Source: a virus
Virus record (IMG/VR): IMGVR_UViG_3300046512_000360
Coordinates: 1-53,751 of that record
Reading direction: 5' to 3' (one strand)
DNA: 53,751 bases
Positions 16,759 through 34,502 of the stretch are shown here, in pieces. The notes under the pieces are model-generated. The model searched no databases. It had not been told where the DNA came from and was given only the letters and a program-made list of their open reading frames with translations. How positions within the stretch are numbered: the first letter of the stretch is position 1; every line of letters begins with the position of its first letter. The position numbers and the translations under genes were made by a program.

Positions 16759-17169
16759 ATGGATCGGAAATCGCAAATTCTCGACCGGCAGCAGCGGATG
16801 TTCCGCATTGCCCAGGACCCTACCCGCTTCGGCTTGACGCTCAAGATGATCGCCGCCGACGCCGACCTGGGCGCCGACAGCGTGCGCAACTACGCCGCCG
16901 GTGAAACGGTGATGCCGATGACCGCCCTCGTCGCGCTGATCGGTGTGCTGCCGGACGAACTGCTGTCGCTGTTGCTGCCCGCCGGTCACGCCATCGTGCG
17001 CATCCCAGAAGGCATCGACCACGACCAGCTCGAAACCTGCGCCCGCGAGTTCCTCGCGGCGAAAGGCGCGGCCCACCATCCCGACAGCCCCGGCGGCCGC
17101 GAGATCGCCGAGTGCGAGCGCCAGGTCCTAGACCGGAAGGCCGCGCATCTGACGGTCGTCGCAGCATGA
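16759..17169 (+). CDS. HTH-like early protein (136 aa)
   Basis: Two close ATG codons are possible; 16759 gives the better distance (9 nt) to the AGGAG ribosome site. The segment FGLTLKMIAADADLGADSVRNYAAGETVMPMTALVALIGVLPDELLSLLLP has the layout of a phage XRE-like helix-turn-helix. The C-terminal part is helical. Probably a regulator of replication or of late functions. Confidence 0.7.
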   Translation: MDRKSQILDRQQRMFRIAQDPTRFGLTLKMIAADADLGADSVRNYAAGETVMPMTALVALIGVLPDELLSLLLPAGHAIVRIPEGIDHDQLETCAREFLAAKGAAHHPDSPGGREIAECERQVLDRKAAHLTVVAA

Positions 17170-17933
17170 CGAAATGCGCGCAATGCGGCTGCAAGATCCG
17201 CGCCGACAGCCAGACCGGGCTTTGCCTGCAGCACCACAACGACAAGCGGGCGCTGGATCGCATTGCGCTCGACGACCGTATCGAGGCGGCTGGACGCACA
17301 GGCATGCGCCAAGTCGATATCGCACGTGCCATGAAGGTGTCGGGTGCGCGCGTCAGCCTCGTGCTGTCATCGAAGGTATACGTCATGCCGACGCACCGGA
17401 TGGCGAACCTGCTCACACTTGCCGCCGCCCATGCAGGCCTGACGGTCGAGGACATCAGAGGCAAGAGCCGCGAGCGCCACATCATCCATGCACGCCAGGC
17501 GGTCTGCCTGCTCGGCACAGAGGCTGGGCATTCCTCGACGTTCGTTTCGAAGGTGCTGGATCGGGATCACTCAACCATCCTGCATGGCCGGGACGCGGCG
17601 CGCGAGCGTGCCAAGCGATCACCTGACTACGCCGTATACCTGGACCTCGTTCGCTCGGGTGAAATGCCGGCCGAAGACCTGGGACCGCTCGAATCGACGG
17701 ACCCAATGCTTGATGAAGCGCCGCCGCCCTCAAAACTATCGCCCGCCCCCGTGCCGCTCCCAGCCGCCCTTGTGGCGCGCTTCGTCCGTGCGCCTCGTGC
17801 TGCGACGACCAAGCGCCGGAACAACTTCGACGACGTCTGCGAGGACGAACGCGAAAGCGAACTCATCCGCAACGACATGATCGCCGGTTCCCGCGCGCTC
17901 GCAGACGCCATCAACGCGATGCGAGCAGCATGA
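17166..17933 (+). CDS. Zinc-finger protein with DnaA domain IV (replication initiator-like)
   Basis: A 255-aa protein. Residues 4-24 hold C4, C7, C9, C20 and two His, a zinc-finger-like site. Residues 45-70 (MRQVDIARAMKVSGARVSLVL) form a second HTH. Residues 90-150 match the C-terminal DNA-binding domain of DnaA: LTVEDIRGKSRERHIIHARQ then LDRDHSTILHGRDAAR, where the last part equals the DnaA signature RDHTTVLH. There is no AAA+ domain. It likely binds a specific DNA site in the origin, close to the iterons two genes downstream. Starts with an ATGA overlap. Confidence 0.8.
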   Translation: MTKCAQCGCKIRADSQTGLCLQHHNDKRALDRIALDDRIEAAGRTGMRQVDIARAMKVSGARVSLVLSSKVYVMPTHRMANLLTLAAAHAGLTVEDIRGKSRERHIIHARQAVCLLGTEAGHSSTFVSKVLDRDHSTILHGRDAARERAKRSPDYAVYLDLVRSGEMPAEDLGPLESTDPMLDEAPPPSKLSPAPVPLPAALVARFVRAPRAATTKRRNNFDDVCEDERESELIRNDMIAGSRALADAINAMRAA

Positions 17934-19271: not shown

Positions 19272-19809
19272 TCAGCTGGCCGCCGCCATGGTCGTTGCGG
19301 CCGCGCCCCTCCCAGCGCTGGAGAAGGCAGACGAACTATTCATCGCCCAGATCCTGCGCATGATGGACGTGCTGCCGCGCCGGCCAGACGATGATGTCGG
19401 CGGCAAGCTTCGCCACCGTGCCTACGAACTGGCGATCGGGCAGTACCCGCGCCAAGCGCTGGAGTTCCTCGTGACCGAGGCGCTGCGCGATTCGAAGTTT
19501 TTCCCGAGCACGTCGGAGTGCGTCGCGATCATGGGGCGCTGGCGTCGCGACGATGCGGCGATCCGCTCGAAGCTCGCTGCCGGCGTGGCGGCGCGGCACG
19601 AGCGCCAGGCCCGCTTCGATGATGCGCTTGGCCGCCTGGCCGCCGGTGAATGCGACCAGGTCGAGATCGACGCGATGGACGATTGGACCAAGCAGGTCGC
19701 GGAGACGCGCGGCCATCTCCGCCGCGAGGAAGACGGCACTTACACCTCACGCATCCGCGGGCCCGAAAGATGCCCGTGCAATGAACAACCCGCATCGGAG
19801 GAAGTATGA
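19141..19809 (+). CDS. Replication-associated protein (222 aa)
   Basis: The start at 19141 lies inside the end of the replication gene (131-bp overlap in another frame); AGGA sits 9 nt upstream. The 222-aa product has an Ala-rich N-terminus, then KADELFIAQILRMMDVLPRRPDD, ALEFLVTEALRDSKFFPSTSECVAIMGRWRRDD and a basic C-terminus with CPCNEQ. I recognise no domain. The position behind an O-like protein would suit a helicase loader (P-like), but there is no AAA+ motif. Confidence 0.6.
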   Translation: MGIEARALGEVLPAVTSLTGEMGSLDRSTTPSNAAEAAPRLSNDQLAAAMVVAAAPLPALEKADELFIAQILRMMDVLPRRPDDDVGGKLRHRAYELAIGQYPRQALEFLVTEALRDSKFFPSTSECVAIMGRWRRDDAAIRSKLAAGVAARHERQARFDDALGRLAAGECDQVEIDAMDDWTKQVAETRGHLRREEDGTYTSRIRGPERCPCNEQPASEEV

Positions 19810-21050
19810 GCAAGGCAATCCGCTGGTCGCACAACGACCGCTATTTCGGCCCGTTCACTTACGCCTATGAGCCGCGCGGCCGAAAGATCGCGCTCATGCT
19901 CGGCTCTGGCGATGGCGCCGACTATCCCGGCTGCCGTCTGCGTGTCGCGGTCGGTGCGCACACGCTGATCGTCGCTCTGCCCGCCGTCATCAAACCCTGG
20001 CGCCGGTGGCATGAAATCACGACCGAGCCGACCCGGACGCAGATGCTCCAATCGGGCCGGCAGCCCGGTTACTGGGATCAGCACGAGCGGGAGTTCGGGT
20101 TCAGTGTGTCCGAGGGATCGGTGCACTTCCACTACGGCCCGCAAACGCACGATAGCGAGACATCCAAGTCAAAGGTCTGGTTCATCCCATGGAAGTCGGT
20201 GCGTCTCGTCCGGACCAGCCACTACGACCTTGCCGGCGAACACTTCGTCACGATCCCGCCGCGCGGAAGCCGCACCAAGTTCGGCCAGGCCGCGTGGCAG
20301 AACCACTGGACGGTGAAGCAGGCGCTGCAAGGCGCGTGCCCGACCGCATCATTCCTGTTCGCCGACTTCGACGGGGAGCAGATCACCGCGACCACGCGCA
20401 TCGACGAAGCCGAATGGGCCAAGGGTGAAGGCAAATTCAAATGGCTGTCGCTGTTCTGCCGGAACAAGGTGGCCCGCACCCTCGACATTCGGTTCGCGGC
20501 CGAGGTCGGACGCGAGAAGGGATCATGGAAGGGCGGTACGATCGGCAGCGGCATCGACATGCTGCCGGGCGAACTGCACGAGGGCGCATTCAAGCGGTAC
20601 TGCGGAAAGAATGGCCTGACGTTCATCGGCGCAGCTGAGCAGCCTGCCGAAGAGGCCAACCCAGAGCTTCCCCCGCAGCCCCCCGTTGCCCAGGGCGGTG
20701 ACGACGAGCTCGATCGACTGCGTCTCGATATGCGAATGATCGTCTCGCATGCAACCGGCGGCGTGTCTGCGGACGTCGACCGGAGCGTCAATGACATCTG
20801 CGTCGACATCAGCCGCAACCGGAACCTCGTTTTCGCGCATGGCAAGGAGGTCGGCGGCAAGGAGGCGATCCAGCCATCCGATGGGAACGTCGAGCGCTTC
20901 GGTCTGGCGATTGGCGCCGCGATCTATGGCGAAGGATTCGATCCGCATCTGAACCCTGAAGCATTCGACTTCGGTTGCAACGCCGGCCGCGTCGCTCTGA
21001 CGGCCCTATCGACCGCGGCGGCGCAGGCTGAGAACGGGAGCGCATCCTGA
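19806..21050 (+). CDS. Hypothetical phage protein (414 aa)
   Basis: A 414-aa protein that starts MSKAIRWSHNDRYFGPFTYAYEPRGRKIALMLGSG. It has W/H-rich segments (WFIPWKSVRLVRTSHYDLAGEH) and a C-terminal part with a helix bundle (DVDRSVNDICVDISRNRNLVFAHGKEV). Family known only as a conserved phage protein in my experience; no catalytic motif seen. Overlaps the previous gene by 4 bp. It may act in DNA metabolism given its position. Confidence 0.65.
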   Translation: MSKAIRWSHNDRYFGPFTYAYEPRGRKIALMLGSGDGADYPGCRLRVAVGAHTLIVALPAVIKPWRRWHEITTEPTRTQMLQSGRQPGYWDQHEREFGFSVSEGSVHFHYGPQTHDSETSKSKVWFIPWKSVRLVRTSHYDLAGEHFVTIPPRGSRTKFGQAAWQNHWTVKQALQGACPTASFLFADFDGEQITATTRIDEAEWAKGEGKFKWLSLFCRNKVARTLDIRFAAEVGREKGSWKGGTIGSGIDMLPGELHEGAFKRYCGKNGLTFIGAAEQPAEEANPELPPQPPVAQGGDDELDRLRLDMRMIVSHATGGVSADVDRSVNDICVDISRNRNLVFAHGKEVGGKEAIQPSDGNVERFGLAIGAAIYGEGFDPHLNPEAFDFGCNAGRVALTALSTAAAQAENGSAS

Positions 21051-21349
21051 TGGACCATGACGAAGACATCGAGGTTACCACGGTAAGGCCAACGGTGGCT
21101 ATCGTTGGCGGCTCGCGCAACGGCATCGGGCAGTTGCTCGCTATCGCGGCAATGTCGGCCGGGTTTGACTTCGCCCGCTCCGGCCCCCGCTCATACGGGC
21201 CTATCGACGTGCTTGCGCCCACGCCACGCCGGGAAGCGAGGCGCGATCGCGTGATCCAGATCGGGCACAATCCCCAGAAGACCTACTTCGAGAGTGAGGT
21301 GCCGATGACGAAGCGGCAGCGCCGCCGAATCCGGGGGAAGCGCGCATGA
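21050..21349 (+). CDS. Hypothetical early protein (99 aa)
   Basis: A 99-aa protein, MDHDEDIEVTTVRPTVAIVG then GSRNGIGQLLAIAAMSAGFDFARSG and a basic C-terminus (MTKRQRRRIRGKRA). The GG..GIG turn resembles a nucleotide-binding loop but is too short to assign. TGATG overlap with the gene before and ATGA with the phosphatase after. Confidence 0.6.
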   Translation: MDHDEDIEVTTVRPTVAIVGGSRNGIGQLLAIAAMSAGFDFARSGPRSYGPIDVLAPTPRREARRDRVIQIGHNPQKTYFESEVPMTKRQRRRIRGKRA

Positions 21350-22080
21350 GCAGGACCTACGCAATCGCAGACCTGCATGGCCGCTTCGACCTGCTCGAGC
21401 GGGCAATCGATCTGATAGAGGCTGATGCTGGTGACGCCGGCGGCACATTTATCGTGCTCGGTGACTTTGTAGACCGCGGCCCCCAGAGCCGAAACATCAT
21501 CGACCTCCTGATGGTAGGCCCGCAGCGGCCGAATTGGCAATGGATCGTCCTTCAGGGCAACCACGAGGCCATGATGATCGAGGTGCTGTCGGCGCCGAAC
21601 CCCGACCTCATGCGCTGGTGGATGGGCAATGGCGGTGGGCAGACCCTGCAGTCGTATGGCTACGCGTCCGGTGACCTCGTGCACCCACTCAAGGTCCCAG
21701 CTGATCACCTGGCGTGGCTGGCGGGCCTGCCGGTCTACCATGAGGATGAGCATCGCATCTTCGTGCATGCCGGCGTCCCGCCGCACCAGCCGCTATTCGA
21801 GGCCAAGCGCGAGACGCTGCAATGGATGCTCTATCCCAGTGACGAGACGTATCCAGACGCCGAGGTCCACGCCGATAGCCAGCACTGCAGCGGCAAGCAC
21901 ATCGTCCATGGGCATCACCAGTCGGCGTCGCACCCACTGCTGAAGCCGCACCGCACAAACCTCGACAGCTTCGCCTGGCACACCGGCAGGCTCGCGATCG
22001 GCGTGTTCGATAACGACTACGCCACGCCGGTGGCGATCATGGCCGCGCAGGCGGCTGGCACAGAAAGGAACCCGACGTGA
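21346..22080 (+). CDS. Metallophosphoesterase (PPP-type Ser/Thr phosphatase)
   Basis: A 244-aa calcineurin-like phosphoesterase. Motifs in order: ADLHGRF at residues 8-14, VLGDFVDRGPQS near 39, LQGNHEAMM near 68, IFVHAGVPPHQP near 143 and HGHHQS near 182, the full metal-binding set. Closest in layout to lambda PP (NinI/orf221). It probably removes phosphate from host or phage proteins; target unknown. In the lambda genome its equivalent lies in the nin region just before the late regulator, the same as here. Confidence 0.92.
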   Translation: MSRTYAIADLHGRFDLLERAIDLIEADAGDAGGTFIVLGDFVDRGPQSRNIIDLLMVGPQRPNWQWIVLQGNHEAMMIEVLSAPNPDLMRWWMGNGGGQTLQSYGYASGDLVHPLKVPADHLAWLAGLPVYHEDEHRIFVHAGVPPHQPLFEAKRETLQWMLYPSDETYPDAEVHADSQHCSGKHIVHGHHQSASHPLLKPHRTNLDSFAWHTGRLAIGVFDNDYATPVAIMAAQAAGTERNPT

Positions 22081-23063
22081 AAACCTTCTTTCTCGCGCTT
22101 TGCGCGCTGCTAGCCTGCGCCTTGCCCGTTGGCACCGCCTTTGCCGACCCTGCATTCCCCGATCGCGGCCGCGCCGCGGTGGTAGACGCAGCTGGCGTCA
22201 TCCCCGATGCCGAAGAGGTTGCCCTCAACTCCCGCATCGTCGGCTGGGTCCACAATACCGGGCACCAGCTTGCTGTCGTGACGGTGCCCAGCCTGCAGGG
22301 CTACGATATCAAGGAATACGGCTATCAGCTGGGCCGCGCCTGGGGCCTTGGCAGCAAAGACCGAAACGACGGTGCCATCCTGCTCCTCGCGCCGACAGAG
22401 CGAAAGGTGCGCATCGAGGTCGGGTACGGGCTTGAGCCGGTGCTCACCGACGGGCTGACCTCGGAGATCATCCGTGGCGTTGTCGTACCGAGACTCAAGG
22501 CGGGAGAGACGTCCGCCGCGTTGAGCGACGGCGCGGTGGCGATCATGGCCGCTTCAACGCCTACGCCAGCCGCTGCCGCGCCGCCGCGCCCAGCCGGCGG
22601 CCGCGGTCCGATGTGGCCATGGCTACTTGGCGGCTTCGTCATCGTGCTGGCTGCAGCAATCTTCGCTTGGGTGCGCAGTATCAACGTGGAGCGGCGCCGC
22701 GCTATCCAGCGCATGGAGGAACAGCGCGAGCGGTTGAGCGCGCACCGGGCATTTTGCCCACCGCCGCCCCCGCGCGACTGGCCGTCACTGCCGCCTTCGC
22801 GTTCGATCGCCGCTCCATCGCCACCCCCCAGCCGAGCCGGTTCGGGCCAGCCTCCCAAGCGCGAGCCGGAGCGACGACGCGACGACGACACCTTCGCATC
22901 CCCGGGTGCATCATTCGGCGCTGGCTTCGGCCTCGGATCATCTTCGTCCAGTTCTTCCGGCAGCGGATCTAGCTGGGGAAGCTCGGATAGCTCTTCATCG
23001 TCCAGCGGTTTCGACGGCGGCGGCGGATCGTTCGGCGGTGGCGGCTCGGACAGTAGCTACTGA
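22077..23063 (+). CDS. Secreted TPM-domain membrane protein
   Basis: A 328-aa protein of the TPM (YgcG-like) family. Residues 1-23 are a signal peptide (KTFFLALCALLACALPVGTAFA), 25-165 form the TPM domain (FPDRGRAAVVDAAGVIPDAEE... with LGSKDRNDGAILLLAP and VGYGLEPVLTD), about 178-200 a membrane helix, and the tail is Pro- then Ser/Gly-rich. Bacterial homologs act in the envelope; phage copies are rare. Lies between the phosphatase and the late regulator, 4-bp overlap. Likely an acquired gene that may be used in envelope change or exclusion. Confidence 0.8.
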   Translation: MKTFFLALCALLACALPVGTAFADPAFPDRGRAAVVDAAGVIPDAEEVALNSRIVGWVHNTGHQLAVVTVPSLQGYDIKEYGYQLGRAWGLGSKDRNDGAILLLAPTERKVRIEVGYGLEPVLTDGLTSEIIRGVVVPRLKAGETSAALSDGAVAIMAASTPTPAAAAPPRPAGGRGPMWPWLLGGFVIVLAAAIFAWVRSINVERRRAIQRMEEQRERLSAHRAFCPPPPPRDWPSLPPSRSIAAPSPPPSRAGSGQPPKREPERRRDDDTFASPGASFGAGFGLGSSSSSSSGSGSSWGSSDSSSSSSGFDGGGGSFGGGGSDSSY

Positions 23064-23065
23064 CG

Positions 23066-23266
23066 ATGATGGACAGCAACGAGATCATCGAGGCCCTTGA
23101 GAGCACCTCGGGAAACCGCAGGGACCGTGGCGGAATTTCCGATCCCCGGATGCCCGACGCCGCGGACATTCGACTTTGGCGCGATCGCCTCTTGAGGTTC
23201 TTCGAGGACCTGGATGCGGAGGTGACCGTCAGTGAAATCGTTGAAGCGCTAGAGGATTATACATGA
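23066..23266 (+). CDS. Small hypothetical protein (66 aa)
   Basis: A 66-aa acidic protein (ATG at 23066 or 23069), MMDSNEIIEALESTSGNRRD then RLWRDRLLRFFEDLDAEVTVSEIVEAL, mostly helical. It overlaps the NusG-like gene start by 4 bp, which suggests joint translation and perhaps a common function in late control. Confidence 0.6.
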   Translation: MMDSNEIIEALESTSGNRRDRGGISDPRMPDAADIRLWRDRLLRFFEDLDAEVTVSEIVEALEDYT

Positions 23267-23781
23267 CGAACTGGTGCATCCTCCGCACTGCTCCCAGCCG
23301 GACGCTGCTGCTCGCGGCGGCGCTGACCGAAGCGGGTTATACGGCATGGACGCCGGAGGAGGCTATTGTTCGGCGGGCGCCGCGTGGCGGTACGAAGAAG
23401 GTGACCGTCGCTTTGACGCCGACAATCGTCTTCGCGGACTATGAGCGACTGCCTGAATTTGTCGCGATCTCGCGCCTTCCACCGAGCCTGTCACATGGAC
23501 TGCCGCCCTTCAGCGTATTTCGGTACCTCGACGGCTATCCGCGCATAGCCGATCGGGCGCTTGATGCGCTGCGCCTCGCGGAGCAACGTGGCCGCCCGCG
23601 TAAACAGGTTCGTGCATTCCATCGGGATGACCTGGTTAAGTGTCCGGGTGGAGGGTTCGAGGGGTTGGTTGGCAGGGTTGAAGGAACGAAGGGAAAGTTC
23701 ACCATCGTCGTCTTTCCGAGCGCCAATTTCCCTGTGGAGATTATGGCACAAGATTTGTTGCCGGCATCGGCGGCAGCTTGA
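23263..23781 (+). CDS. NusG-family paralog (transcription antitermination)
   Basis: A 172-aa protein with the NusG/RfaH layout. The N-terminal NGN-like domain begins MTNWCILRTAPSRTLLLAAALTEAGYTAWTPEEA, with VALTPTIVFADYERL as its central strands; residues about 120-155 form a KOW domain (DDLVKCPGGGFEGLVGRVEGTKGKFTIVV). It lies at the very end of the early-right operon, in front of a late promoter candidate and a hairpin, which is where lambda has Q. This makes it a good candidate for the late-gene antiterminator acting on RNA polymerase. Fold assignment is good; antitermination is inference. Confidence 0.75.
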   Translation: MTNWCILRTAPSRTLLLAAALTEAGYTAWTPEEAIVRRAPRGGTKKVTVALTPTIVFADYERLPEFVAISRLPPSLSHGLPPFSVFRYLDGYPRIADRALDALRLAEQRGRPRKQVRAFHRDDLVKCPGGGFEGLVGRVEGTKGKFTIVVFPSANFPVEIMAQDLLPASAAA

Positions 23782-23807
23782 CGCGTGCGGCGATGTTCCT
23801 GTATTGA
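23778..23807 (+). promoter_or_regulatory. Late promoter candidate (PR'-like)
   Basis: TTGACG at 23778-23783, 18 nt, TATTGA at 23802-23807. It overlaps the stop of the NusG-like gene and would start a transcript just before the hairpin at 23835. The -10 box matches poorly, so support comes mainly from position. Confidence 0.4.
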
Positions 23808-23834
23808 TCCACTTACCCGCTGCCAGGAGCAGCA

Positions 23835-23883
23835 TGGCAAGCTAATTGGCCTGACGCCCGAAAGGGAGGGTTAGCCCTTGCCA
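23835..23883 (+). promoter_or_regulatory. Structured RNA element with GNRA loop
   Basis: A 49-nt imperfect hairpin: TGGCAA (23835-23840) pairs with TTGCCA (23878-23883), GCTAA with TTAGC (2-nt CC bulge between), CCT with AGG (4-nt GACG bulge), and CCC with GGG around a GAAA tetraloop (23860-23863). No U-run follows, so it is not a simple terminator. It lies directly after the NusG paralog gene and the late promoter candidate. It also contains the three-codon frame ATG GCA AGC TAA behind CAGGAG. Confidence 0.55.
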
Positions 23884-23943
23884 CTACCCAACGGACGCGC
23901 CCTCGCTTTCGGTGACCGCGCGAAGCGCACCGATACAAACCCT

Positions 23944-24150
23944 TCATCGTTTACGCGATAGGAACTCGTCGACGCCGAGGTTCTTCCTCGCTCGTTCCAT
24001 CGCATCCACTTCCATTGATGCGCGCCACTCTTCGGCGGAGAACAGGCGAGTATGGCACCGCGCGCATGTCACCCATCCCGGCTCATGGCCCAACGCAGGG
24101 TCTGCATGACCGCACTGGAAGCAGGCGGGACTTAGTTCGATCTTATCCAT
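23944..24150 (-). CDS. Antisense zinc-ribbon protein (68 aa)
   Basis: A minus-strand gene inside the late-gene leader: start at 24150 with a GAGG ribosome site, product MDKIELSPACFQCGHADPAL then HEPGWVTCARCHTRLFSAEEW. Two CxxC pairs (CFQC and CARC) fit a small zinc ribbon. The rest is an acidic to basic helix. It runs against the late transcript, like three other small genes in this phage. Function unknown. Confidence 0.65.
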   Translation of the reverse strand: MDKIELSPACFQCGHADPALGHEPGWVTCARCHTRLFSAEEWRASMEVDAMERARKNLGVDEFLSRKR

Positions 24151-24164
24151 CGCATCCTCATATC

Positions 24165-24503
24165 ATGAAGATCGTGCCGATGCCCAGCAAGCCACCTCAG
24201 TTCAGCACTAAGCGCAAACCATCCAAGCCCAAGGCCTGGGTGACCAGCCGCAAGAGCCGTCAGGCGCGCGGATACGGGCGCGAACACGAAATCATGCGAG
24301 CCATCGTGCTGCGCGAGGAGCCGCTCTGTCGGGTCTGTCAGGCCGAGGGCCGCGTCACCGCCGCAACGATCGCCGACCACATTAAGCCATTGGCCGAAGG
24401 TGGCACCGGCGAGCGCGACAACTACCAGGGCATTTGCCGGCCCTGCCACCACTTCAAGACCGCTGCGGAGAGCAAGCGGGCTAGGGACAGGAGACGTCGA
24501 TGA
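24165..24503 (+). CDS. HNH endonuclease
   Basis: A 112-aa phage HNH nuclease. CRVCQAEGRVTAATIADHIKPLAEGGTGERDNYQGICRPCHHFKT holds the zinc CxxC pairs, the catalytic DH, the central N and the last H. The basic N-terminus (FSTKRKPSKPKAWVTSRKSRQARGYGREHE) matches relatives next to terminase genes, where the nuclease supports DNA packaging. The start at 24165 (alternative 24180). Confidence 0.9.
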   Translation: MKIVPMPSKPPQFSTKRKPSKPKAWVTSRKSRQARGYGREHEIMRAIVLREEPLCRVCQAEGRVTAATIADHIKPLAEGGTGERDNYQGICRPCHHFKTAAESKRARDRRRR

Positions 24504-24875: not shown

Positions 24876-25298
24876 ATGCAGCGAGGCCGTAAGCCAGATC
24901 CCCCTGCCGTGAAGGCAGCCCGCCTGGGCAAGCTTCCCGGCACCGAGACTTTCGGCCGCGCCGAACTGCTCGTCCCCGGCTCGCCGCCCGCGATGCCGGA
25001 TTATTTGAAACCCGAGGCAATCGATGTCTGGCAGGAAGAGATCGGTCGCGTCATGGCGGCCGGTGTCGTCGAAATCGATAGCTCCCTTTTCGCGCGGTAC
25101 TGTTCGCTGGAAGCGCTCGTTCGTCAGGCTTTCAACGCCGGCGACGAGCCTCCCCCGATGGCTGCCCTGACTGTCCTTCGGCAGTACGGCGAGCTGCTCG
25201 GGATAGCTGGCCGCAAGAGCCGTGTTGGCAAGGTGGCGGATGACCCGACGAAAACCGGCAACCCCTTCGCTCGAAACGGCAGCCGGCCACGCCCGTGA
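24876..25298 (+). CDS. Terminase small subunit (P27 family)
   Basis: A 140-aa protein of the phage P27 terminase small-subunit family: MQRGRKPDPPAVKAARLGKLPG at the start (the typical RGRKP), PGSPPAMPDYLKPEAIDVWQEEIGR, and a short helix-turn region before LRQYGELLGIAGRKSR and the DDPTKTGNPFARNG tail. It would recognise the packaging site and regulate the large subunit. The large subunit gene starts within it (59-bp overlap). Confidence 0.92.
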   Translation: MQRGRKPDPPAVKAARLGKLPGTETFGRAELLVPGSPPAMPDYLKPEAIDVWQEEIGRVMAAGVVEIDSSLFARYCSLEALVRQAFNAGDEPPPMAALTVLRQYGELLGIAGRKSRVGKVADDPTKTGNPFARNGSRPRP

Positions 25299-27039
25299 CT
25301 ATGCCGCCATCGCCCTGGCATATGCCAAGGCGGCTGTGGCGGACAAAAAGCAGAAGCGGCATTGCAAGTTCGTGCGCCAGGCGGCGCAGCGACACCTCGA
25401 TGACCTGAAGCGCGCCCGCAAGCGCGACTTCCCGTACCGTTACGACGAGTGGCACGCGAACGACATCTGCGACTTTATCGAGAAATTGCCACACGTCGAA
25501 GGCCAGTGGGAGACGCCTAACCTCCGCCTCGAGCCTGTGCAGATATTTATCCTCGCCACCGTGTTCGGCTGGCGTGACAAGGGCACTGGCCTACGTCGGT
25601 TCACCGATGTCTACATCGAGATGGCCCGCAAGGGCGCCAAGTCCACGCTGACGGCCGGTGTCGTCCTCTATTGCGCATGCTGCGAGGACGAACCTGGACC
25701 ACTTATCCTGATCGGGGCCACCACCGGCGCTCAGGCACTCAAGGTCTTCAAGCCGGCGCGCATCATGGCGCTGCGCTCGCCTGCCCTCCAGGAGGCCTTC
25801 GGGCTCCAGGTCTGGGCGAAGTCCATCACCATCGCCGACAACGCCGGCGAGATTCAGACCATCAATTCCAAGGGCTCGACGCAGGACGGGCACAACCCGC
25901 ACGTCGCGGTGCTCGATGAGCTGCATGCGCACAGGGACCGCGCGCTGTTCGACGTCATCCACTCCGCCGACGGATCGCGCCGCAACCCTCTGTACTGGAA
26001 GATCACCACCGCCGGCTTCGATCTGCACGGCGTCTGCTACGAGCAGCGGACCTACGCGGCGAAGGTTCTGGCCAAGGCCATTGCCGCCGAGCACTTCTTC
26101 GCCATCATCTTCACCCTCGACGATGCCAAGGATTTTACGCCCGAGCGAAAGGTCGGGGACGACCCCTACGACGAAGCGAACTGGATCAAGGCCAACCCGC
26201 TGATGCCGGTGACGCCGAGCCTCGCGGCCATGCGTCGCCAGGCCACGGGCGCGAAGGGTGCGCCGGGGTCCGAGGGCGAATTTTTCACGAAGCGGCTTAA
26301 CAAATGGATGGGCGCCGCCAGTGCTTGGCTCAACGTCACGCAGTGGATCGCTTGCTCCGACCCGACGCTGACGCTCGACGACTTCCGCGGGCTAGACTGC
26401 TACATCGGCGCTGACCTTTCGAACGTGGACGACCTTTCCGCGATCGTGCTCGCAGCCATGGACGACGGCGGGCGCCTGCTGGTGAAATGTTGGTTCTATT
26501 GCCCGAAGGCGCGGCTGCAGCGGGAGGATGCGACCACGAAGCAGGCCACCGAGATGTATCGGCAGTGGGTGAAGGACGGCCATCTGGTTGCGACCGAGGG
26601 CGACTTCATCGACCACCGCGCCATCGAAGCCCAGATCCGTGAGCTCAAAGAACTGCTGGCGGTCCACAAAGCGACGTTTGACCAATGGAATAGCGGACTG
26701 GCCATGGCCTCCCGCCTCAACGAAGACTTCGACGACGGCGGCGAAGCCTTCGCCGCGCAATTGTCGAAGAACGCCAACAACCACACCGATCCGGCCAAGG
26801 ACGTGGAGGCGCGCGTAAAGGCAGGCGCGCACCAACTGCGGCACGACGGCAACCCGGTGATGACGTGGATGATCGGCAACGCTGTCGTCGATCGACGCAC
26901 CGATGGCAGCATCCTTCCCAAGAAGGAGACGCCGAACAGTCCCAATAAGATCGACGGCGTGGATGCCCTGATGAACGCAACCAAGCCGATGGTCCAACCC
27001 GAAGAGACCGCCCCAGAATACGAGATGCTCGTCGTCTAG
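25240..27039 (+). CDS. Terminase large subunit
   Basis: A 599-aa packaging motor and nuclease. The start at 25240 has an AGGTGG ribosome site; an upstream GTG at 25222 is possible. The ATPase half has the adenine-binding LRLEPVQIFILATVFGW (about residue 95), the Walker-A-like ARKGAKST (about 129-136) and Walker B VAVLDELHAH (about 222-230). The nuclease half has YIGADLSNVDDLSAIV with its metal-binding Asp and a late DGVDALMNA. Same general type as HK97 and other P27-linked terminases. Confidence 0.95.
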   Translation: MTRRKPATPSLETAAGHARDYAAIALAYAKAAVADKKQKRHCKFVRQAAQRHLDDLKRARKRDFPYRYDEWHANDICDFIEKLPHVEGQWETPNLRLEPVQIFILATVFGWRDKGTGLRRFTDVYIEMARKGAKSTLTAGVVLYCACCEDEPGPLILIGATTGAQALKVFKPARIMALRSPALQEAFGLQVWAKSITIADNAGEIQTINSKGSTQDGHNPHVAVLDELHAHRDRALFDVIHSADGSRRNPLYWKITTAGFDLHGVCYEQRTYAAKVLAKAIAAEHFFAIIFTLDDAKDFTPERKVGDDPYDEANWIKANPLMPVTPSLAAMRRQATGAKGAPGSEGEFFTKRLNKWMGAASAWLNVTQWIACSDPTLTLDDFRGLDCYIGADLSNVDDLSAIVLAAMDDGGRLLVKCWFYCPKARLQREDATTKQATEMYRQWVKDGHLVATEGDFIDHRAIEAQIRELKELLAVHKATFDQWNSGLAMASRLNEDFDDGGEAFAAQLSKNANNHTDPAKDVEARVKAGAHQLRHDGNPVMTWMIGNAVVDRRTDGSILPKKETPNSPNKIDGVDALMNATKPMVQPEETAPEYEMLVV

Positions 27040-33942: not shown

Positions 33943-33963
33943 CCCGGCGCTGGCCGGGCTTTT
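33943..33963 (+). terminator. Hairpin before the tail tube gene
   Basis: Stem CCCGGC / GCCGGG (33943-33948, 33953-33958) with the loop GCTG, followed by CTTTT. It lies 18 bp before the tail-tube start and would lower transcription into or mark the start of the tail tube unit. Confidence 0.7.
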
Positions 33964-34482: not shown

Positions 34483-34502
34483 CCCGCTCCGGCGGGATTT
34501 TT
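34483..34502 (+). terminator. Terminator after the tail tube gene
   Basis: Stem CCCGC / GCGGG (34483-34487, 34492-34496), loop TCCG, followed by ATTTTT (34497-34502). Strong rho-independent shape. With the hairpin at 33943 it brackets the tail tube gene. Confidence 0.8.

Follow-up and report, generated by a model that had tools for sequence, protein, structure and literature searches.

Results

A NusG paralog heads the packaging operon

The analysis covers a 53.7-kb virus record in IMG/VR, which is called the window throughout. An open reading frame on its plus strand (23263–23781) encodes a 172-residue protein that we place in the NusG superfamily from the profiles of its relatives and an AlphaFold2 model. 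The gene is followed on the same strand by a promoter, a leader RNA (23819–23931) and the packaging module, which begins with an HNH endonuclease gene (24168–24503) and continues with genes for the terminase small subunit (24876–25298) and the terminase large subunit (25222–27039, given as the longest reading frame; the true start may be further in). An earlier, sequence-only reading of this DNA had put the gene in the position of lambda Q, and the arrangement bears this out: gene and leader head the packaging/head operon, with the terminase genes downstream, and the gene directly precedes the late promoter and its operon, as the Q genes of lambda and phage 21 do at pR'. Across related loci the leader is likewise followed, on the same strand, by HNH, terminase and portal genes. 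The terminases are of different types, some only distantly related to that of the window, and both the type of the first gene downstream of the leader and the distance to it vary.

Several neighbouring features were recorded. An anti-defence gene, encoding an Acb3-type CBASS inhibitor (19806–21050, plus strand; Pfam Acb3, E = 4.5e-77), lies a few genes ahead of the one for the NusG paralog, and, also on the plus strand, there are a calcineurin-like phosphoesterase (21346–22080; Pfam Metallophos, E = 5.8e-12) and a protein with a DnaA C-terminal DNA-binding domain (17112–17933, E = 1.5e-10), a possible phage replication initiator. The gene just upstream of the NusG-like gene (22077–23063, plus strand) encodes a protein that combines a TPM domain (E = 7.8e-35) with a membrane-like segment and a long tail rich in Gly and Ser, which is unusual for a phage. 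A small zinc-ribbon-like reading frame on the minus strand (23944–24150) separates the leader from the HNH gene in the window and is absent in the related locus L001. Within the late operon, two GC-rich hairpins followed by T-runs (33943–33958 and 34483–34496, plus strand) are candidate terminators, which a late switch would have to overcome; the late strand of the window has only these two, and the number on both strands together was not above chance.

Searched alone against Pfam, the window protein gave no match. PHROG 6386 matched it (E = 1.4e-21), and was rejected as a phage-specific marker because it also matched in 261 of 289 genomes of Alphaproteobacteria and in 10 of the 14 genomes taken as controls, mostly through housekeeping NusG. 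When the window protein was taken together with 22 relatives, the Pfam NusG model matched 10 of the 23 members (best 1.1e-5), RfaH was matched by 10, and the UpxY NusG-paralog model matched all 23 (best 5e-14) and was the best curated match for each. The window protein scored 30.5 bits against this UpxY model (NF033644), below its curated cut-off of 100, and is not assigned to that family; UpxY antiterminators act on Bacteroides capsule operons. NusG and Spt5 structures in the PDB were also matched in a profile search with the paralog.

AlphaFold2 (mean pLDDT 91) models an NGN domain (residues ~1–110), a basic RGRPRK linker and a KOW domain (~118–168) predicted to be a β-barrel, a prediction that does not settle fold switching. 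The modelled NGN domain was closest to that of polymerase-bound RfaH (Z = 9.9), and the KOW domain matched Spt5/NusG. NGN followed by KOW is the arrangement of the NusG superfamily, and the model thus indicates a specialised paralog; NGN and KOW-like domains had already been suspected in this 172-residue protein, whose reading frame is there and whose fold is now predicted by the model and backed by the profiles of relatives. In window-type members, residues ~109–115 (RGRPRKQ) form an AT-hook-like basic linker between NGN and KOW, which is not kept in Sphingomonas-type members.

Relatives occur in Sphingomonadales

Relatives were collected from IMG/VR, genome contigs and whole genomes, giving 89 loci, 73 of them distinct. 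The paralog subfamily was present in 43 of 295 genomes of Sphingomonas (the genus of locus L013), 9 of 94 of Sphingobium (that of L012) and 4 of 196 of Novosphingobium (that of L010), and in none of the 288 further genomes sampled from the same class. As far as sampled, it is confined to Sphingomonadales. Comparison by tblastn of four different members with named phages, and of one member with named plasmids, gave no match. The carriers, described before as lambda-like phages, are better termed (pro)phages of Sphingomonadales.

A promoter and a multi-helix leader follow the gene

The −35 element of the promoter (TTGACG, 23778–23783) overlaps the TGA that ends the NusG-like gene and is followed, after a spacer of exactly 18 nt, by the −10 element (TATTGA, 23802–23807), with transcription predicted to start at about A23815, all on the plus strand. 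TTGAC overlaps the stop codon in 15 loci, and in 14 of these TA lies exactly 18 nt on (other spacings occurred in 0–3 of 15), so that the TTGACG-N18-TATTGA element noted earlier is both present (23778–23807) and recurrent in its spacing. Six loci (L012, L023, L024, L082, L083 and L087) keep the promoter and then have a hairpin of different sequence. Sphingomonas-type loci, read by eye, have a different promoter-like sequence within the 3′ end of the gene and an extra hairpin, P0, ahead of P1.

The leader, delimited by three covariance models (R1, R2 and R3), comprises four putative helices on the plus strand. P1 (23819–23833, GCTGCCAGGAGCAGC, predicted +5 to +19), lying between the promoter and P2, is a 5-bp stem with a 5-nt loop (GCUGC-CAGGA-GCAGC). 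P2 (23836–23882) has an outer stem GGCAAG/CUUGCC, an asymmetric internal loop carrying the conserved motif GCUAAUUGG, and an inner stem-loop. P3 (23892–23911) is imperfect in the window, with two non-standard pairs, and strong in relatives as GGAAGC..GCUUCC; P4 (23918–23931) is a small hairpin of the GCGCGAAGCGC / CCGAAGG / UGCGACGCA type. The order P1, longer P2, P3 and small P4 was found in 57 distinct loci. P1 was better conserved than P2, and its tetraloops in the alignment all end in A, as do its CAGGA-type pentaloops. The geometry of P1 in the window, a 5-bp stem and 5-nt loop, is presumably that of lambda nut boxB, a resemblance in geometry only; lambda N is a disordered peptide and not a NusG paralog.

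The sequence-only reading had singled out a 49-nt hairpin with a GAAA loop as the key element. This hairpin does exist, with GAAA in its loop and without a U-tract, but it is only helix P2 (23836–23882) of a larger leader; the element that matters is a three- to four-helix leader, which starts with the overlooked 15-nt P1 and includes P3 and P4, also missed. P2 is modestly more stable than shuffled sequences (z = −2.16 for the hairpin alone and 0.03 within a wider 96-nt piece), so energy alone would not have revealed it and a comparative route was taken. Comparison of the window with L001 showed that the promoter and the 15-nt P1 hairpin are conserved just ahead of P2. A first conclusion from this comparison, that P2 is not conserved, was wrong: its sequence changes and the helix is kept.

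The leader is a conserved structured RNA

Alignment of all leaders by MAFFT followed by RNAalifold was unsuccessful because helix lengths vary, and covariance models were used in its place. R1 was built from 16 Sphingomonas-type leaders and R3 from 47 leaders, in both cases with the window left out; the window is itself a member of R2, which gives no independent test of it. The best match of R1 in the window was 23819–23931 (20.4 bits, E = 0.0058; next 0.36), and the top match of R3 was exactly the same interval (38.9 bits, E = 1.1e-4; next 0.18). Across 53 aligned leaders, 88.4% of cells pair, two-sided changes occur at 22 of 25 base pairs, and covariation was 0.446, compared to 0.151 ± 0.010 for shuffled alignments (0 of 500 as high) and ≤0.101 for slid ones; this alignment was fitted to the model, which favours pairing scores, and P1 can be read without any model. 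Read in this way, the P1 stems were GCTGC/GCAGC (25), GCCGC/GCGGC (18), GCGGC/GCCGC (2) and GCTGA/TCAGC (1). On the tree of NusG proteins, at least 11 changes fall on the third pair of P1, which appears as TA, CG or GC (and once as TG). In a sign test on independent pairs, P1 gave 3 of 3 concordant, the supported branches being too few for significance. Compensatory changes, whose absence in relatives the sequence-only reading had named as grounds for giving it up, are thus abundant.

In many loci P1 and the stop codon share nucleotides, and a coding artefact was considered as the origin of P1. We rejected this, as the position of P1 varies between −18 and +75 nt from the stop (~+810 in L003 and L020), which codon use does not explain; P1 is not a by-product of the codons of the gene. 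No Rfam 15 covariance model matched the window at gathering scores, and none matched 14 related loci up to E = 0.5. From the comparison of these leaders we conclude that they are a conserved structured RNA, a new family without a match in Rfam.

Is the conserved element read as RNA or as DNA? On the plus strand, G–T combinations (89, expected 119.5) were tolerated more than A–C combinations (30, expected 86.5), which points to a rightward RNA and not to a DNA palindrome, and all leader matches at NusG-like genes were on the sense strand. These data bear on the explanation that the paralog is recruited by the non-template DNA strand, as RfaH is at ops, or by the promoter, as Q is, with the RNA serving translation, mRNA stability or RNase processing. 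Like the window protein, RfaH is a specialised NusG paralog, and it is the best match of the modelled NGN domain; the element also sits at the promoter, where Q-type proteins act, and mRNAs can be stabilised by 5′-terminal hairpins. However, the tolerated G–U pairs and the co-varying helices over more than 100 nt favour RNA, and mRNA stability alone would leave the tie to the NusG-like gene, described below, unexplained. RfaH loads from a hairpin in non-template DNA and has an α-helical, autoinhibited KOW domain, whereas the KOW domain here is predicted to be a β-barrel and the element has RNA-type covariation. Matches to the ops element (GGCGGTAGCGTGC) at the leader all had at least three mismatches, and their number in the window was close to chance. 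We therefore consider recruitment through DNA unlikely.

The leader and the NusG-like gene occur together

In 389 whole genomes of Sphingomonas and Sphingobium there were 34 matches to the RNA models, 33 of them behind a NusG-like gene. With R2, the 295 Sphingomonas genomes gave 30 matches, 29 of them starting no more than ~26 nt from where a NusG-like reading frame ends; with R3, all four matches in the 94 Sphingobium genomes lay behind NusG-like genes, one of them ~310 nt away. The single orphan leader (L099, 1501–1599) is in an apparently decayed stretch of Sphingomonas prophage, with no NusG-like gene in the 3.1 kb covered. Some of these genome matches are themselves members of the alignment, and the weight of the test lies in the absence of matches elsewhere in ~1.6 Gb. 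Conversely, a leader was recognised at E ≤ 0.05 in 53 of the 73 NusG-like loci, and about a quarter (L025, L028, L030, L042, L061, L066 and others) had no leader recognised by the models. A DNA-only pattern of promoter plus P1, with the loop left free, found six loci in IMG/VR, each with a NusG-like gene; a control pattern with a GCCGC/GCGGC stem found two, about the number expected by chance, neither with a NusG-like gene. In DNA as rich in GC as this, weak matches to the models of up to ~22 bits arise by chance. A long exact pattern of P1 plus P2 gave no match.

Adjacency of leader and gene could partly be mere linkage. In L003, L020 and L086 other DNA lies between the gene and an intact leader, and in L003/L008 a foreign gene separates the NusG-like gene from the promoter–P1 element. 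The inserts between gene and promoter/leader (L003, 5525–6330; L020, 5561–6370; L086, ~300 nt behind the gene) mark a possible site for cargo genes. Overall, many temperate phages of Sphingomonas-type bacteria have a NusG-like gene and a folded leader ahead of their virion genes.

The same data bear on a second explanation, in which the leader alone acts on RNA polymerase, as the put RNA of phage HK022 does, and the paralog is a separate booster or a mere neighbour. HK022 putL consists of two stem-loops within ~70 nt just downstream of PL (PMC9378689), and P1 plus P2, two stem-loops of ~70 nt at predicted +5 to +68, match it in size and place, a likeness of anatomy that does not imply kinship in sequence. 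In contrast to the leader described here, which heads a late operon, is linked to a NusG paralog and continues with P3 and P4, put sites serve early operons without a dedicated protein (PMC9378689). As 33 of 34 leader matches adjoin a NusG-like gene, and the known leaders and the paralog share one bacterial order, this genetic linkage argues against put-like action, and we regard it as improbable.

A proposed RNA-guided late switch

Considering the features computed here (a predicted NusG fold, a promoter, a structured leader co-inherited with the gene, and their place before the late genes), we think it probable that gene and leader form a self-contained antitermination unit for the late operon, in the position of lambda Q, with the NusG paralog loaded via the leader RNA. 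Binding of the leader, retention on polymerase and antitermination are inferred from LoaP, RfaH and put RNA. The paralog would be made from an early or middle transcript. The late transcript would start from the sigma-70-type promoter at the very end of the gene, and its first ~115 nt would fold as P1–P2–P3–P4. The paralog would bind this leader as it emerges from RNA polymerase, most likely at P1 and the internal loop of P2; its NGN domain would dock on the polymerase, displacing host NusG, and the paralog would stay attached. Polymerase could then pass Rho-dependent and intrinsic stops through the packaging, head and tail genes. Weighing against this reading are the quarter of NusG-like loci in which the models recognise no leader, the scarcity of terminator-like hairpins on the late strand, and the imperfect P3 of the window. 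These results support the earlier proposal of a late switch operated by a NusG-type protein that reads an RNA in cis.

The closest precedent in logic is LoaP, which requires a leader hairpin and binds it, and which in vitro needs no factors beyond polymerase and NusA (PMC12691694). LoaP and the UNCG hairpins of dfn and mln in Bacillus velezensis are likewise an operon-specific NusG paralog with a small leader hairpin (PMC12691694). The hairpin, host and operon differ: LoaP uses a UNCG-type hairpin in polyketide operons of Bacillota, whereas the present system is found in phage late operons of Alphaproteobacteria, with an NNNA tetraloop or a CAGGA-type pentaloop in P1, GAAA in the P2 loop of the window, no UNCG loop, and a longer, multi-helix leader. 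GafZ of the Caulobacter gene transfer agent is also a phage-derived, late-type antitermination factor in an alphaproteobacterium; the DNA element from which it works lies between −10 and −35, and its structure, as predicted, does not resemble those of known antiterminators (PMC11150451). With lambda Q the likeness is one of position. The window protein has a modelled NusG fold, and Q, which is not NusG-fold, loads from DNA between −10 and −35.

A further explanation makes the leader an operator or feedback element, through which the paralog or another phage protein represses or times translation of the late genes, with no antitermination. RNA-binding regulators often bind leaders, and this one lies just upstream of the HNH and terminase genes. 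However, the first gene past the leader differs from locus to locus in distance and type, and those NusG-family proteins whose function is known work on elongating polymerase (PMC7819879, PMC12691694). We consider feedback of this kind highly improbable, and retain loading of the paralog via the leader as our preferred reading.

Discussion

On balance, we lean towards a wider conclusion: that in a group of Sphingomonadales phages a NusG paralog replaces Q, in a late switch guided by RNA through a co-inherited, multi-helix 5′ leader that constitutes a new structured RNA family. The protein superfamily is known; the RNA family and the proposed use are new. Prophage-borne rfaH-like genes have been mentioned in the literature (PMC7593976). 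Among open-access papers (subscription papers and preprints lay outside this scope), we found neither such a leader RNA nor a NusG-type late switch in phages.

The leader is a new conserved structured RNA with a protein partner indicated by genetics, and the more than 50 matched protein–RNA pairs provide a natural series in which to study how NusG paralogs find their targets. If the proposed mechanism is true, it would be a new form of late-gene control in phages, with a NusG paralog where lambda has Q, and would join LoaP-type hairpins, put RNA and the Q position in one compact unit. The unit would then also serve Sphingomonas genetics as a compact antitermination cassette. Sphingomonad prophage genes annotated merely as NusG or antiterminator gain a new reading.
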